DNA from: a virus
Reading direction: 5' to 3' (one strand)
Virus record (IMG/VR): IMGVR_UViG_3300034198_000329
Coordinates: 1 to 32,023 of that record
DNA length: 32,023 nt
The stretch's first letter is position 1. Every line of letters begins with the position of its first letter. The translations under genes and the position numbers were made by a program. Shown here piece by piece: positions 7,268 to 32,023 of the stretch. A model generated the notes under the pieces. It worked only from the letters and a program-made list of their open reading frames with translations, made no database searches and was not told the origin of the DNA.

Positions 7268-8497
7268 TTAGTATCCCTCCGTCCACATCAGAACAACAAG
7301 GCCGTTGCCGCCAAACAGTGTAGTGGTCCCATTACCACCTCCACTACCGCCACCTACACCTCCACTTCCCCCATTCGTCTGTGCGCTACCGCCACCGCCG
7401 CCGCCGATACCACCACTACCACCAATTCCGCCACCTCCGCCACCAGCACCAGCACCACCCATTCCACCCACATAGGATGAAGATAGTGTACCCGCGCCAC
7501 CCGCACCTGCACCGCCATTTCCCCCATTTGCTCCTGTACTTACTCTTCCCCCAGAGCCGTTAAAAACTTCAGGGTTAAGTAGGAAAAGACGAAAGAAGTT
7601 GATGCCCTTTTCCAAAAGATCAGTTGTGGACAACCCGTTGGAACCTGCAGTGGTGGGCGTTGACACAAAAAAACCAGTCCCCGGATCGCCTGTGTTCCCA
7701 CTTCCGGTACTATTAACTCCCGGACTTGCAGCCCCACCACCTCCAGTATAAGCTCCGGCTGAGGAACTTGAGATGCTGTCTACGTCACCACCTTTCTTAA
7801 GGCCACCACCTCCGGTGGTGGCACCTACGGGTGCGGTCCCTCCAGACGACAGCAGGCTTCCTCCCGCACCGCCAAAACCACCACCACCAGTAGCGTGACC
7901 ACTACTAGTAGAGGCATGACTGTTGAGGTTGACCGACCCGCCTGCTCCTCCAGTACCAAACTGAGAACCTGCACCCCCACCCCCAGTGTTTACGTTTCCT
8001 GAAGCGGCAGCACCTGTCTTATTTCCACCCGCCCCACCGGAGGCAGTGAAAACATTTCTAAGGTTTGCCGTGGAACCCGTACCGCCAGCACCACCGGAAG
8101 CCGTCGCTGTTCCGGTATTGGTAACGCCGCCGCCGGAGCCTCCAGTTGCCGTGAGCAAAGAACCTATGGAGGATGTCCCCCCGGCGTTCCCTGCCCCGTT
8201 TGTCGTGGTAGAACCTCCCGCCCCTACAGTGATGGTTGGGAGAATCTGCCCGGGAACGACATCAATAATACCCGCGGCAAAACCACCGCCACCGCCACCA
8301 CAGTTGATAGCATTAGCACGTCCGCCAGACCCGCCAGCACCAACACAGAATGCGTAGATTTGATACACGTTCTGAGGGACAACAAAGTCGTTGTACGTTC
8401 CGGCGACTGGGTACACCCGAGTGTTGGCCCAGACGGGAGGAGCTACGCGAGTGGCCTGATTAGGCGGAAGACCAAAGCCGTATTGACCTTTATTCAT
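7268..8497 (-). CDS. Glycine-rich receptor-binding adhesin, cassette 1, 409 aa
   Basis: Same architecture as the 325-aa adhesin. After about 27 residues comes VYPVAGTYNDFVVPQNV, then FCVGAGGSGG, followed by polyglycine tracts with short variable loops (GGGGGGF, GGGAGSQFG, GGGGGGIGG) and an ending of VVLMWTEGY. A non-glycine insertion (about residues 285-310, FFRLFLLNPEVFNG) breaks the repeat and may be an exposed loop. Expected role is host receptor recognition at the fibre tip. The start ATG overlaps the stop of the preceding gene (TAATG). Nucleotide repeats rich in CCACC (+ strand) make this region prone to slippage and recombination. Confidence 0.85.
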   Translation of the reverse strand: MNKGQYGFGLPPNQATRVAPPVWANTRVYPVAGTYNDFVVPQNVYQIYAFCVGAGGSGGRANAINCGGGGGGFAAGIIDVVPGQILPTITVGAGGSTTTNGAGNAGGTSSIGSLLTATGGSGGGVTNTGTATASGGAGGTGSTANLRNVFTASGGAGGNKTGAAASGNVNTGGGGAGSQFGTGGAGGSVNLNSHASTSSGHATGGGGFGGAGGSLLSSGGTAPVGATTGGGGLKKGGDVDSISSSSAGAYTGGGGAASPGVNSTGSGNTGDPGTGFFVSTPTTAGSNGLSTTDLLEKGINFFRLFLLNPEVFNGSGGRVSTGANGGNGGAGAGGAGTLSSSYVGGMGGAGAGGGGGGIGGSGGIGGGGGGSAQTNGGSGGVGGGSGGGNGTTTLFGGNGLVVLMWTEGY

Positions 8498-8898
8498 TAG
8501 AAGTCACCTCCCAAGCCAATGACATTGATCCCGGTCTGAGCCACCGAAGTCGTCGCGCGGAGAGAGTGTCCCGAAGGGAGAACCAGTGGCATGATGTTGG
8601 CATGACTGTTGCTCGACAGCGTGGTGGTAAAAGCCGGAGCAGTGGTGCTGGACGTAATTGGCAAGACAGGAACCTGCGTCCACAGACGGTAGTTGGTGCC
8701 GTCGTAGATGAACAGGTTCACAAGACCCGAGAGTGTCGTGGCAACACCCTGAATGTCGATGTAGTCGATACGAGTACCCGAGGAACCTGCAGTGACCACA
8801 GTGCCAACAGTCGAAGGAGCCGTCAGAGACGTGTCTGCGGTAGTAAGCAGTGCTGCACCAATCTTAGGTACAGATGCGTATTGTGCTGAAGTAGCCAT
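8497..8898 (-). CDS. Small beta-rich tail tip protein, cassette 1, 133 aa
   Basis: Thr/Ser/Ala/Val-rich and probably all-beta, with STVGTVVTAGSSGTRIDYI then LVNLFIYDGTNYRLW. It lies directly between the main fibre gene and the 409-aa adhesin gene and is translationally coupled to the latter. It is the likely paralogue of the 137-aa protein at 6048-6461. A connector between fibre and adhesin, or a decoration protein, are both possible. No catalytic motif was seen. Confidence 0.8.
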   Translation of the reverse strand: MATSAQYASVPKIGAALLTTADTSLTAPSTVGTVVTAGSSGTRIDYIDIQGVATTLSGLVNLFIYDGTNYRLWTQVPVLPITSSTTAPAFTTTLSSNSHANIMPLVLPSGHSLRATTSVAQTGINVIGLGGDF

Positions 8899-8907
8899 AG
8901 TTTTTCC

Positions 8908-11223
8908 TTAGATTAGAGCGATAGAGTCAGAGGCAGAGAAAGAACCCGGAGGTGCATTACCACCCGTAACTTGTGTAACAAAACCTTGTGCACCAGTGGG
9001 CGGAAGGCTTGCAAGTGTAAGATTCCCAGAGCCATCTGTTTTGAGGTACTGGTCTGCAGTTCCGTCAGAGGTAGGTAGGGTGAATATCCCAAGGAAACTG
9101 CTGAGGTTTGAGTCGTAAGCCTGAACACTGGTTCCAATGTCTGCAGACTTAAGAATTGTAGCGTCATAAGCCTGAACATCGACACCAACAGCAACACCAA
9201 GGTTAGTTCTCGCCGTAGCCGTATTATTCAGATCAGACAGGTTATTGGTGATACGAAGGAAACGACCATCAGACTGGGCCTGAGTGTAGGTGTTAGCAAT
9301 CTCAAACGAACCATAGGCAATGATGTCAACAGTGTCGTTTAGGGCTGCACCAGTGGCCAGTACAATAGAAGTACCGTTGGTTGCAGTGTAGTCTGTGCTA
9401 ACAACAAGCTTCACACCATTCAGGTAGACATCTACAAAACCAACATCGTAGACTGCAGCAAAGGTTGTTTGACCACTCGTAGCAGTATAGACACTACGTG
9501 CTGCAGTACCGTTCACCGAGGAGCCAGCATCCACCCAAGAGGTACCAGTGTAGACCTTCATCAACTCTGAAGTAGTATCCCAGTACAGAGCGCCTGTGAG
9601 AAGAGTGTTACCGTCATTGTCTACAGAAGGAGGAGACGACTTGGAACCAAGATAGCGATCATCAAAGGCATCATAGGAAGCAGCAGCAGCGGTAGCACTA
9701 TTTGCAGCATTGGTAGCAGATGTCGAGGCAGCAGATGCACTACCAGCAGCAGCAGTCGCAGAGGTTGCAGCAGCAGCAGCACTAATAGCAGCATCTACGT
9801 TACTTGAGACGATACTATCAATATAACCTTTTCTTGTCAAGTCATCTGCATTAACAGGATTAGCAGTTGAAGTGATTTTGTTGGAACCCATGACAATATT
9901 GCCAGTCATAGTCCCGCCAGAGAGGTTCAACTTAGTGGCGTCTGCAGTGTCAACATAGGCTTTAGTGGCAGCATCCTGATTGGACGTAGGGTCACCCATG
10001 CCAGTGATCTTATTCGTCCCCATAGCGATAGCACCAGACATGGTACCACCAGCAAGAGGGAGACGAGTATTAACTTGAGTGTCAACGTAGCCCTTACGGG
10101 TCAGGGTATCATCTGTCGTGGGTGTGGCTGTAGAAGTAACCTTGTTCGAACCCATAACCAGATCGCCAGTCATGGTGTCACCAGCCTTAGTCAGCTTAGT
10201 GGCAATAGAGGCGGCAGTGGTTGCAGCAAAGTTAGGGTCATCACCGAGGGCAGCAGCAAGCTCATTCAGCGTGTCCAGAGTACCCGGAGCAGTGTCGATC
10301 AGGTTGCTGATAGAGGTGTCAACGTAGCCCTTGGTAGCAGCGTCTGCAGTGCTTGTGGGGGTGCCAAGACCAGTGATCTTATTCGTACCCATTGCAATAG
10401 CACCGCTCATGGTGCCACCAGAGAGGTTCAGCTTCAAGTTATCTGCAGTATCGACGTAGGTCTTAGTGGTTGCATCAGTGCCATTTACAGGAGCAGAGAG
10501 GCCCGTGACGGTACCTGCACTACCACTGTTCATGTTCAGTGAGCCATTGATCGTGACATCATTAAAAGAGCTAGAACCGCTAGAAGCAGTAATGTTACCA
10601 GTGACATCCCCAATCACAGCCCCAGTGTGGGTGCCTGCAGAGTTGCCAGTGAGGTTGCCCGTCACGTTGCCTGTCAGAGTACCAAAGAGGCCCGTAGTAG
10701 CGGTGATGTTTGTACCAGTGATTGCCTGAGCAGAAGAACCACCAATAACCGCACCATCAATCGTACCACCATTAATGTCTGCAGTGGCTAGGGTGGAGAG
10801 ACCAGTGACATTGAGGGTACCAGCGACAGTAGCGTTCTCGTGCACTTCCAGAGTGTCGATGTATCCAATGCCATCAATGTAGACGTTCTTGAACTCAAGT
10901 GAGGAAGTGCCAAGGTCAATATCATTATCAGTAATAGGAACAATGGCCCCATCCTGAACTCTGACTTGCTCAACTGCGCTGCCACTCACTTCAACAAAGA
11001 AACTTACTCTGTTGTTTACTGTATCAACGACAACCTTGTTTCTGGCGTCAGTGTCTGCAATCAGAGGTACATAAGCACCCTCACCAGTGGAACCATCATG
11101 ACGGTGGCCAGTGACGAGGAGGAAGGCATCCCTGATAGCATTAAATTCAGCGTTAATCGGAGAAGCCCGAACGACAGCGGTAGGAACGATATCCGCAGCA
11201 GACTGGCGAACGTATCCTGTCAT
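8908..11223 (-). CDS. Tail fibre protein, 771 aa
   Basis: The N-terminus (MTGYVRQSAADIVPTAVVRA) is a likely particle-attachment domain. Residues about 110-250 are Gly/Thr/Asn beta-structure. Four imperfect repeats (about 266-303, 345-382, 389-426, 433-470) have the pattern LSGGTMSG-x-I-x-MG-x-NKIT followed by KGYVDT. Next come an Ala/Ser/Thr helical stretch (473-516), a conserved module FDDRYLGSKSSPPSVDNDG, and VDVYLNGVKLV. The C-terminus carries a double VQAYD motif and TLPTSDGTADQYLKTDGSGN. These features are typical of trimeric phage fibres. It follows the tail tube genes and precedes two adhesin cassettes, so the adhesins probably bind its distal end. Confidence 0.9.
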   Translation of the reverse strand: MTGYVRQSAADIVPTAVVRASPINAEFNAIRDAFLLVTGHRHDGSTGEGAYVPLIADTDARNKVVVDTVNNRVSFFVEVSGSAVEQVRVQDGAIVPITDNDIDLGTSSLEFKNVYIDGIGYIDTLEVHENATVAGTLNVTGLSTLATADINGGTIDGAVIGGSSAQAITGTNITATTGLFGTLTGNVTGNLTGNSAGTHTGAVIGDVTGNITASSGSSSFNDVTINGSLNMNSGSAGTVTGLSAPVNGTDATTKTYVDTADNLKLNLSGGTMSGAIAMGTNKITGLGTPTSTADAATKGYVDTSISNLIDTAPGTLDTLNELAAALGDDPNFAATTAASIATKLTKAGDTMTGDLVMGSNKVTSTATPTTDDTLTRKGYVDTQVNTRLPLAGGTMSGAIAMGTNKITGMGDPTSNQDAATKAYVDTADATKLNLSGGTMTGNIVMGSNKITSTANPVNADDLTRKGYIDSIVSSNVDAAISAAAAATSATAAAGSASAASTSATNAANSATAAAASYDAFDDRYLGSKSSPPSVDNDGNTLLTGALYWDTTSELMKVYTGTSWVDAGSSVNGTAARSVYTATSGQTTFAAVYDVGFVDVYLNGVKLVVSTDYTATNGTSIVLATGAALNDTVDIIAYGSFEIANTYTQAQSDGRFLRITNNLSDLNNTATARTNLGVAVGVDVQAYDATILKSADIGTSVQAYDSNLSSFLGIFTLPTSDGTADQYLKTDGSGNLTLASLPPTGAQGFVTQVTGGNAPPGSFSASDSIALI

Positions 11224-29551: not shown

Positions 29552-29650
29552 GTCTAGTTATACCCTTAGGCTTTCCTTAGTCAAGCCTTTTTCTACGGCA
29601 AAAAAAGATTTCATCAGTACTTGAAATTCATCTTCTGCTTACTATATAAG

Positions 29651-29820
29651 AATACTTAAGTATTACTTAAGTAGTACTTAAGTCCTCCTAGAGTCTCTAC
29701 TTAAGTATTCTTCTTATATATTATATACTTAAAGAATAATAATACTAATGTAGTACTTAAGTAGTCTCTCAAGGAGTACCTTAGGTAGTCCATCAAGAAG
29801 TACTTAAGTATCTCTTAAGT
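29651..29820. repeat. Array of TACTTAAGTA palindromes
   Basis: Seven exact CTTAAG hexamers at 29655, 29666, 29677, 29700, 29756, 29803 and 29814, mostly inside the 10-bp palindrome TACTTAAGTA, plus near-copies at 29728 (CTTAAA) and 29780 (CTTAGG). The first is a 14-bp palindrome, AATACTTAAGTATT. The spacing is 11, 11, 23, 56, 47 and 11 bases, so several sites lie on the same helical face. This looks like an operator array or replication-initiator array placed between a leftward promoter and the first late gene. Confidence 0.8.
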
Positions 29821-29848
29821 AATATACCGCCTTTCCGTTTTTTGTCAA
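29821..29848 (-). promoter_or_regulatory. Leftward sigma70-like promoter of the late operon
   Basis: On the minus strand a perfect -35 box TTGACA (29848-29843), a 16-base spacer, and a -10 box TATATT (29826-29821, one mismatch to TATAAT). Transcription would start near 29814, inside the rightmost CTTAAG palindrome, and lead to the 80-aa gene, endolysin and the whole late operon. Confidence 0.65.
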
Positions 29849-30209: not shown

Positions 30210-30341
30210 AGAACTACAAAAATCCCCCCGCTGTCATTGTTGGTATACGCTATCAGGCACCCCCCCGGTGGCCCATGCCCGCCCCCCTATGCCTGTCATG
30301 ACGTAGGTAGGCCAGCGCATTATGCTTAAGCGTATGACATC

Positions 30342-30434: not shown

Positions 30435-30593
30435 CCAATCGGGAGACGGCAAAGGACATGCACCCTGATGGAACATCAGAAGGGCCAAAAAGACCAGCTC
30501 AGAACCCCAAGAGTTTTTGTTGCCCGCGCCTTGCATAATGCTTAACCCCGCAGGCTAAAACTTTCGAAAGGTTTCCCCTTTAGGGGAAGTTAA

Positions 30594-30619
30594 AGTCGGA
30601 CCGTCCGACTATAGAAAAT
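30594..30619 (+). promoter_or_regulatory. Palindromic header, copy 1 (rightward)
   Basis: Perfect 17-bp palindrome AGTCGGACCGTCCGACT (30594-30610) followed directly by ATAGAAAAT. It is 131 bases upstream of the 195-aa gene start. The ACTATAGAA end matches the core of SP6-type promoters (ACTATAGAAG). It may be a phage RNA polymerase promoter or an operator covering a -10 box (TAGAAA). Confidence 0.6.
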
Positions 30620-30741
30620 CCCGATGCTACCCTTTAGGGTAAAAAAGCCTTGACAACCGGTTTGACTTGACGGCCTTATAGAGGGGCCAAACAACGGCGC
30701 TGATCGAAACCACCCCTAAAGGGGAAACCGGAGAAAACACC

Positions 30742-31329
30742 ATGTCGAATATTGCTAACGTAGTTATCGCCGCTGATGCCACCGTCAAAGTCGGCAAGAA
30801 ATCCTTCACCATTGCTGAAGCAATCAAACATGCCTCGTCGATCTACGACACCATGTGGCTGATGCAAGAGCAGATGCTGGACCACTACCGTGAAATCGGA
30901 ACGATTTTGATTGGGCTTCAGACCCTGTTCGGCGACAACCGTAAGGCATTCGGCCAGTATCTTGCCGGGACTGACCTTGGTCAGATGTCAAAGCAGGACC
31001 GTTCCGATGCCATGTTCCTTGCGACAAACTGGACTAAGGTCCAGAAGCTGAACCAGAACGGCGCCCTTGACACCCTTGGTGTTTCGGCAATCCGTAAGCG
31101 GCTCAAAGTTGCCGAAGGCAAAGCATCGAATGGTGCCGGGGTTCGCAAGATGGACCAGAAAACCGCAGCCCCTAAAGGGGAAGTCACTGAGCCGAAGGCT
31201 GAGGCTAAGGCACCAAAGGTGAAAGACGAGGCTGAATTGGCGGATCTGGTCTGGACCCTGATTGCAGACAATGGTCTGGACTTCGCAGTGTTCACCAAGG
31301 CTCTGGTCGCCAAGCGCAAGGGGTCGTAA
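30742..31329 (+). CDS. First rightward gene, DUF3102-like helical protein, 195 aa
   Basis: ATG 30742 has GGAG 8 bases upstream. Residues 20-105 are helical (AEAIKHASSIYDTMWLMQEQ then LDHYREIGTILIGLQTLFG, KAFGQYLAGTD, SKQDRSDAMFLATNW), a pattern like the DUF3102 phage/plasmid family (Ile-Gly-x-x-Leu, Phe-x-x-x-Leu, later Ser-x-x-x-Ala-x-x-Met). Residues 125-165 are a basic Ala/Lys/Glu linker and the C-terminus is another helix. It lacks an obvious enzyme motif. Codons are GC-richer than in the late operon. As the promoter-proximal early gene it may regulate or take over host functions; function unproven. Confidence 0.85.
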   Translation: MSNIANVVIAADATVKVGKKSFTIAEAIKHASSIYDTMWLMQEQMLDHYREIGTILIGLQTLFGDNRKAFGQYLAGTDLGQMSKQDRSDAMFLATNWTKVQKLNQNGALDTLGVSAIRKRLKVAEGKASNGAGVRKMDQKTAAPKGEVTEPKAEAKAPKVKDEAELADLVWTLIADNGLDFAVFTKALVAKRKGS

Positions 31330-31364
31330 GACCCCACCACGTTTCCCCTTTAGGGAAATCACGA

Positions 31365-31388
31365 GGCATCCTTCGGGGTGCCTTTTTT
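31365..31388 (+). terminator. Rho-independent terminator after the 195-aa gene
   Basis: GGCATCC (31365-31371), UUCG-type tetraloop (31372-31375), GGGTGCC (31376-31382), then six T residues (31383-31388). The stem has one G-T pair. It lies 36 bases after the stop and just before the second palindromic header, so each rightward unit appears to be separately transcribed. Confidence 0.85.
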
Positions 31389-31428
31389 CGTTTGTCGTCA
31401 CGGTTTCCCGAAGGGAAGGCCAAGGTAA

Positions 31429-31452
31429 AGTCGGACGGTCCGACTATAGAAT
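31429..31452 (+). promoter_or_regulatory. Palindromic header, copy 2 (rightward)
   Basis: Perfect 17-bp palindrome AGTCGGACGGTCCGACT (31429-31445) followed by ATAGAAT, then the CCCCTGAAAGGGG hairpin and an AGGAG ribosome site 7 bases before the ATG at 31480. It lies directly after a terminator, as expected for a promoter. Confidence 0.65.
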
Positions 31453-31479
31453 CCCCTGAAAGGGGAGAGGAGAAAAACC

Positions 31480-31587
31480 ATGACAGCATGTCGGATGATC
31501 GAATTGAGCGTGATCCTGTTTGCCTTTGTGGTGGGTGCGCTGGTCCTGATCTGTGCGCCGCATGATGATGATGAGGGGGGTGAGTGA
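31480..31587 (+). CDS. Single-pass membrane micropeptide, 35 aa
   Basis: ATG 31480 with AGGAG at 31468-31472, 7 bases upstream. The peptide begins MTACRMIELSVILF and has a membrane helix AFVVGALVLICA (about residues 9-26), ending HDDDEGGE. Acidic tail outside or inside the membrane. Such peptides in early operons often alter host membrane functions or exclude other phages. The function here is unknown. Its TGA overlaps an ATG, but that ATG leads to no long frame. Confidence 0.7.
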   Translation: MTACRMIELSVILFAFVVGALVLICAPHDDDEGGE

Positions 31588-31588
31588 T

Positions 31589-31849
31589 GTGCATGTGAGC
31601 AAGCGTGAGCGCATGGCCCGTAGGGCAGACAAGTGGTGGCGTAGCGTGTGGCATGTGCAGATGCTGATGACAGACAGTCGCATGAGTGGGCGCGATGAAC
31701 CCTTGAGCAGGGCGAAACCCTTGAGCAAAGCGAATCTATTGACAGATGATGTGGGCCGTGGTTTTCTAAAGGCTCATTCGACCTGCTGCCAATCGAAACA
31801 CAAACCTAAAGTCGGACGGTCCGACTATACAATGGGAGAAACGAAATGA
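31589..31849 (+). CDS. Possible basic protein, 86 aa
   Basis: Open frame with GTG start candidates at 31580 and 31589 (AGGGGG about 8 bases upstream of the latter) or ATG at 31613. The product is strongly basic (KRERMARRADKWWRS), with a perfect-frame 18-base tandem repeat at 31700-31735 giving PLSRAK then PLSKAN. The frame runs through the third palindrome and stops inside the next ATG (ATGA). The last 30 residues may be only an open tail. Start and reality are uncertain. Confidence 0.4.
   Translation: MHVSKRERMARRADKWWRSVWHVQMLMTDSRMSGRDEPLSRAKPLSKANLLTDDVGRGFLKAHSTCCQSKHKPKVGRSDYTMGETK
31810..31833 (+). promoter_or_regulatory. Palindromic header, copy 3 (rightward)
   Basis: Perfect 17-bp palindrome AGTCGGACGGTCCGACT (31810-31826) followed by ATACAAT (a TACAAT -10-like box). 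A GGAG ribosome site lies at 31835-31838, 7 bases before the ATG at 31846, so any transcript starting here has a very short leader. Confidence 0.6.
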
Positions 31850-32023
31850 CCTACGGGTTCATTGAATCAGATGTGATCCGCTACGCCTTGATCGACCGGG
31901 ACAACACACCTGACACCCTGTCCAAGTGTCTGGACCTGATGACTGACTACATCGTGAATGACATGGTGGATGAGCAGGTGCCGTATGAGGTGTGGACCAA
32001 GCGCAACGATGCACTGACAAAGG
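31846..32023 (+). CDS. Hypothetical early protein (partial, runs off window)
   Basis: ATG 31846 with GGAG 7 bases upstream. The visible 59 codons begin MTYGFIESDVIRYALIDRDN and continue with CLDLMTDYIVNDMVDEQVPY then EVWTKRNDAL. Acidic, helical, no membrane segment, no known motif. Headed by the third palindrome. Confidence 0.7.
   Translation, partial: MTYGFIESDVIRYALIDRDNTPDTLSKCLDLMTDYIVNDMVDEQVPYEVWTKRNDALTK

Follow-up and report, generated by a model that had tools for sequence, protein, structure and literature searches.

The window analysed here is a 32,023-bp virus contig in which the late operon runs leftward and the early operon begins at the far right, where the window end cuts it (Table 1). 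Its large terminase is 66–78% identical to those of Roseobacter phages CRP-13, CRP-9 and CRP-2 and of phage HMO-2011, and we therefore take the window to be a fragment of an HMO-2011-type marine podovirus, a group that is reported to dominate in the ocean and in which many members have integrases. Facing the leftward late operon is a strong sigma-70-like promoter, TTGACA-16-TATATT (11 of 12 positions; 29821–29848, - strand), adjoined by a block of TACTTAAGTA repeats (29640–29820).

Table 1. Features of the early region at the right end of the window (window positions).
Feature	Position	Strand	Remarks
Site c1, TAAAGTCGGACCGTCCGACTATA	30591..30613	+	precedes the gp01 -35 hexamer by about 40 bp; all relatives with the region have an equivalent copy in their gp01 leader
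TTGACA, likely host -35 hexamer of gp01	30650..30655	+	downstream of c1 in every clade read; no clear -10
gp01, 195-aa orphan protein, first early gene, candidate site-binding regulator	30742..31329	+	
Intrinsic terminator after gp01	31363..31388	+	stem 31363-31384 plus T-run
Site c2, TAAAGTCGGACGGTCCGACTATA	31426..31448	+	past the gp01 terminator, ahead of the next small gene
Small ORF, 35 aa, hydrophobic, headed by c2	31480..31587	+	
ORF with conserved basic stretch KRERMARRADKWWRSVWHVQM	31553..31849	+	tracks with the sites; alternative trans-factor
Site c3, TAAAGTCGGACGGTCCGACTATA	31807..31829	+	ends 16 bp before the next ATG
Gene headed by c3	31846..32023	+	runs off the window end

An earlier note on this DNA had described a perfect palindrome, AGTCGGAC-S-GTCCGACT, at 30594, 31429 and 31810, and we recovered it exactly: AGTCGGACSGTCCGACT matches 30594–30610 (centre C), 31429–31445 (centre G) and 31810–31826 (centre G), and the window has no further match when up to 3 mismatches are allowed. 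Shuffling the window gave a mean of 0.09 matches, and none of 100 shuffles reached three. The local details described with it were likewise found, with 3' flanks of ATAGAA, ATAGAA and ATACAA after copies 1, 2 and 3, distances of 34 and 19 nt from copies 2 and 3 to the ATGs at 31480 and 31846 (both with GGAG-type ribosome sites), a terminator ahead of copy 2, and a leftward operon free of further copies. The symmetry goes beyond 17 bp, with TA...TA at ±10/11, and the unit is therefore 23 bp (sites c1 to c3, Table 1).

We searched IMG/VR with gp01, alone and then as a profile, and obtained 21 loci, all 21 of which carry CGGA-NNN-TCCG sites in the same place, namely the gp01 leader and early-gene boundaries. 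In these relatives the element is a 23-bp dyad, N6-CGGA-NNN-TCCG-N6, with an invariant core and clade-specific flanks: TAAAGT..ACTATA (window), TAATAT..AGGATA (G001/G002), TAGTGA..TCAGTA (G003), ATCTGT..ACGGAT (G004), ATATGT..ACAGAT (L026), CGTTGT..ACGACG (L027–L033) and TAATCA..AGAATR (G005/G006, L034–L039). The loop bases (CSG, TGG, CCA, TCG, CGA, AAT, ATT, AAA or GAT) vary even within one genome. Complete genomes hold 5–8 copies confined to 3–5 kb of early genes (5, 5 and 8 copies within 3.3, 3.3 and 5.1 kb in G001, G002 and G006); G001 has a further, stray match in its late region, and the chance expectation for exact 11-mers is about 0.9 per 59 kb. The sole match of an exact-pattern scan of IMG/VR (L004) fell in an unrelated phage at chance level and was set aside.

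Copies lie preferentially at gene junctions, mostly 21–45 nt before starts, and some overlap the ribosome site or ATG itself. The TAA stop of the upstream ORF fills the left arm of several sites (G006, G017, G019, G020), and in this same clade one site has the start codon at +9 and a centre that reads GGAG, the ribosome site; in L026 one 23-mer lies mid-way in a 130-aa ORF. The observation that the palindrome always stands on the same side holds within the window and becomes a mere tendency among relatives, with 60 of 71 copies forward, 6 better reversed and 5 tied, and with c2 reversed in G017 and G019. From these stops, ribosome site, start codon, mid-ORF copy and reversed copies, we conclude that many copies are probably transcribed through and that orientation is a preference rather than a rule. 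Intrinsic terminators or a known RNA family were rejected as identities for the sites: Rfam gave no family match, and the window sites lack a T-run behind them on the coding strand (one is present after c3 of the G005 clade).

Other elements accompany the sites in the same region. The gp01 terminator is found behind gp01 in most clades. Small dispersed hairpins (CCCCTTTAGGGG / CCCCTAAAGGGG / CCCTTTAGGG) occur at 30571–30588, 30625–30642, 30713–30724, 31165–31182 and 31341–31358, in leaders and inside the gp01 coding sequence, and also in most relatives, often directly flanking sites. A block of the form CCCCCGCTGTCATTG...GTATACGC..CACCCCCC..TGGCCCATGCC (approximately 30225–30290) is kept in the gp01-bearing relatives read and is recognisable in the CRP-13 leader, and in most clades a GCATAATGC element (approximately 30533–30541 in the window) is found close to c1 and the gp01 promoter.

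Presence of the sites coincided with presence of gp01. The gene occurs in 14 of 14 site-bearing and 0 of 13 site-less group genomes (the latter being ten named phage records plus IMG/VR contigs G007, G008 and G011), and it is the only sizeable family with that pattern; two small early families also track with the sites, less completely, including that of the 31553..31849 ORF with homologues in 12–13 of the 14 site-bearing genomes and in none of the 13 site-less ones. The array is absent from all 13, where the nearest 23-mers differ by 5–8 mismatches. A close comparison is between G001 and G011, which are about 90% identical over much of the genome: where G001 has a 3.5-kb segment (52129–55604) containing gp01 and all five sites, G011 has unrelated DNA instead, and the DUF7178 gene, preceded by a site in G001 and G002, lacks one in G011. 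Taken with the co-occurrence, this replacement indicates that gp01 and the sites appear to travel as one module, and shared ancestry of the early region could account for the co-occurrence in part. In G011 (L054), where the module is missing, positions 8432–8989 hold four to five 25-bp tandem repeats and two TTGACAC...AGTAAATGCCAGAGTAAGG repeats. The late genes of G001, G002 and G011 are strongly mosaic; a 1170-aa late (ejection-like) protein is 60% identical between G002 (L041) and G011 (L046), while G001, the sister of G002 elsewhere, shows 29%.

No significant Pfam, PHROG or PDB relative and no recognised DNA-binding domain was found for gp01, and its AF2 model was mediocre (pLDDT 72) and yielded no significant or confident match in a fold search. 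A scan of the bacterial genome set turned up no gp01, hence no prophage state is in evidence, and no cultured phage with gp01 was found, all gp01-bearing relatives being metagenomic contigs. A tyrosine integrase is present in all ten site-bearing genomes that hold the region, and CRP-3, an HMO-2011-type phage, has been reported to integrate (PMC9038755).

Evaluating variation across the dyad, we found that positions ±2 to ±5 never vary, while ±6, ±7, ±8, ±10 and ±11 change in matched pairs and ±9 is mostly unpaired. The covariation score for 24 distinct sites was 0.380 against 0.129 ± 0.023 in shuffled data (0 of 500 shuffles as high) and at most 0.100 in slid controls, and changes on both sides were seen in 33 cells, compared with 12.5 ± 2.7 after shuffling. 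Such covariation fits two half-sites read on duplex DNA, and the invariant core with clade-specific flanks is, by analogy, the pattern seen with co-evolving repressors and their sites.

We interpret the palindromes as 23-bp, stoperator-like operators recognised by a dimeric DNA-binding regulator that the phage itself encodes, most likely gp01, and put the probability of this reading at roughly 0.55. It draws on the gp01 co-occurrence, the module swap and the dyad covariation, on the integrases of site-bearing genomes together with the report on CRP-3, and on the placement of sites that are tied neither to promoters nor to ribosome sites (the mid-ORF copy, the overlapped stop codons and ATG, the position of c1). 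Against it stand the lack of a recognised DNA-binding domain and the mediocre model of gp01, its absence from the bacterial genomes scanned, another small gene family whose presence follows that of the sites almost as closely, and a flank asymmetry with one orientation in 60 of 71 copies that a pure dimer site would not need. Mechanistically, gp01 appears to form its own transcription unit, with the host TTGACA -35 hexamer ahead and the intrinsic terminator behind. Its product would bind at c1 in the leader, at c2 past the terminator and at the remaining copies, which lie at early-operon junctions, and sites so occupied would block host RNA polymerase from starting in or continuing into early genes. 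With c1 upstream of the gp01 promoter and c2 past the terminator, gp01 could be expressed while early transcription via c1 or beyond c2 would be blocked, such that early genes would be silenced in a lysogen or shut off later in infection. We infer all three of the elements involved, namely binding by gp01, repression by gp01 and lysogeny as the setting.

One alternative is that the sites are RNA operators, in which hairpins in early mRNAs near ribosome sites are bound by a phage protein that controls translation or mRNA stability. Copies do stand at transcribed cistron junctions, mostly 21–45 nt before starts and in some cases over the ribosome site or ATG, and ±8 reads T-G in 9 distinct sites and C-A in 1, a bias towards pairs that survive in sense RNA. 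However, ±11 has no such strand bias (6 vs 7), ±9 is unpaired in 30 of 45 sites, ±6 is A-A in 12, c1 precedes the gp01 promoter and one copy sits in the middle of an ORF. Two clades have only weak predicted hairpins (-3.3 and -3.8 kcal/mol), other clades have strong ones, and in one clade the stem is mismatched next to the core. On balance we consider RNA operators unlikely.

There is likewise only a small chance, in our estimation, that gp01 acts as an immediate-early activator and that the sites serve host RNA polymerase as promoter elements. Copy 2 stands behind a terminator and has no visible host promoter, and the 3' flank of the copies in the window and its close relatives is -10-like (TAGAAT, TACAAT), as would suit activator-dependent promoters; yet other clades lack a -10-like flank, c2 is flipped in G017 and G019, and a ribosome site or ATG lies inside or abuts some sites, where a downstream transcript start would remove it. 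A host-promoter search upstream of each copy found TTGACA about 59–79 bp upstream of c3 and a few other copies, not all, and the one upstream of c3 may be coding (KPLT). The earlier note had also entertained a shared operator over host -10 boxes, and its two halves fared differently: the operator is supported because the sites recur as a conserved dyad family in all gp01-bearing relatives, and the host -10 box is rejected because the 3' flank is clade-specific, ATAGAA being replaced elsewhere by ACGACG, ACAGAT or AGAATG.

Sites that serve DNA organisation, partition (parS-like) or the initiation of replication instead of controlling transcription would also appear as multi-copy palindromes around a gene of uncharacterised product and would tolerate mid-ORF placement. 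We find this improbable given that copies prefer gene junctions and are spread over 3–5 kb, and that integrases rather than partition genes were noted, with no ParA/ParB-like gene noticed in passing.

The idea that the earlier note favoured, T7/SP6-like or N4-type hairpin promoters read by a phage-encoded RNA polymerase, fared worst. Sequence methods detected no single-subunit RNA polymerase motif in the complete relatives, the only polymerase motif being that of the DNA polymerase, and no match to the N4 vRNAP, although a very diverged enzyme could escape such a method. No RNA-polymerase-sized gene tracked with the sites across the 14 site-bearing and 13 site-less genomes. A virion RNA polymerase among the 1170- to 1355-aa late proteins was rejected, with no RNA polymerase family, PDB or N4 match, and a scan with PF00940 (Pfam RNA_pol) was uninformative because its control was as silent as the scan. 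A 23-bp element with a 3-nt loop, found in the early region only, ahead of genes and mostly in one orientation, would suit such promoters, as would the resemblance of the window copies to SP6 ACTATAGAAG, but with no polymerase gene found, loop bases that vary within one genome, copies inside genes and some copies flipped, we regard this explanation as very improbable.

If gp01 does act through these sites, abundant marine HMO-2011-type phages may possess an undescribed immunity or early-control system, comprising an orphan repressor, 5–8 palindromic 23-bp roadblocks at junctions and approximately seven clade-specific flank types, a proposal that we advance tentatively and at somewhat less than even odds. 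We found no described regulator of lysogeny or early expression for HMO-2011-type phages, and the main survey of the group contains neither ‘repressor’ nor ‘promoter’. With a linked regulator and site array, and with a close site-less genome serving as natural control, immunity and the choice between lysis and lysogeny would become directly testable in this group, and the system also offers a sequence marker by which these phages might be sorted into immunity types.

Among known systems, the sites share with T7/SP6-class promoters a length of 23 bp and, in the window copies, an end in ACTATAGAA, but they are palindromic, no RNA polymerase gene was found, the ATAGAA end is not conserved across relatives and neither is the -4..+1 initiation segment of T7/SP6 type, which reads TATAG, GATAG, CGACG, AGATA, AATGA and so on by clade. 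The hairpin promoters of the N4 virion RNA polymerase consist of a GC-rich inverted repeat with a 3-nt loop, in few copies in the early region (PMC4496689). The sites match this description in all these respects and differ in that no vRNAP gene was found, the loop is not conserved, and sites lie inside genes and are sometimes reversed. The repressor of Streptomyces phage phiC31 acts at conserved inverted repeats, multi-copy palindromic operators among early genes, which probably differ from the window system in sequence, host and protein. In the temperate Cluster A phages L5 and Bxb1, a single repressor gene is paired with many short stoperators that lie mainly in short intergenic spaces, are biased in orientation with transcription and have a clade-specific consensus that varies with the genome; the L5 sites are 13–14 bp long and without dyad symmetry, are bound by a monomer and occur 20–30 times across the genome (PMC6550527, PMC9283540). 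Like stoperators, the window family places many sites at intergenic or junction positions within transcribed operons and has a consensus that changes from clade to clade; unlike them, its sites are 23 bp with a conserved dyad, number 5–8, keep to the early region and accompany an unrelated candidate protein. Because the sites are dyads, few and early-restricted, and gp01 resembles no known repressor, we do not regard the system as a member of the L5 type; by analogy, the L5-clade repressor with its stoperators is its closest functional parallel.
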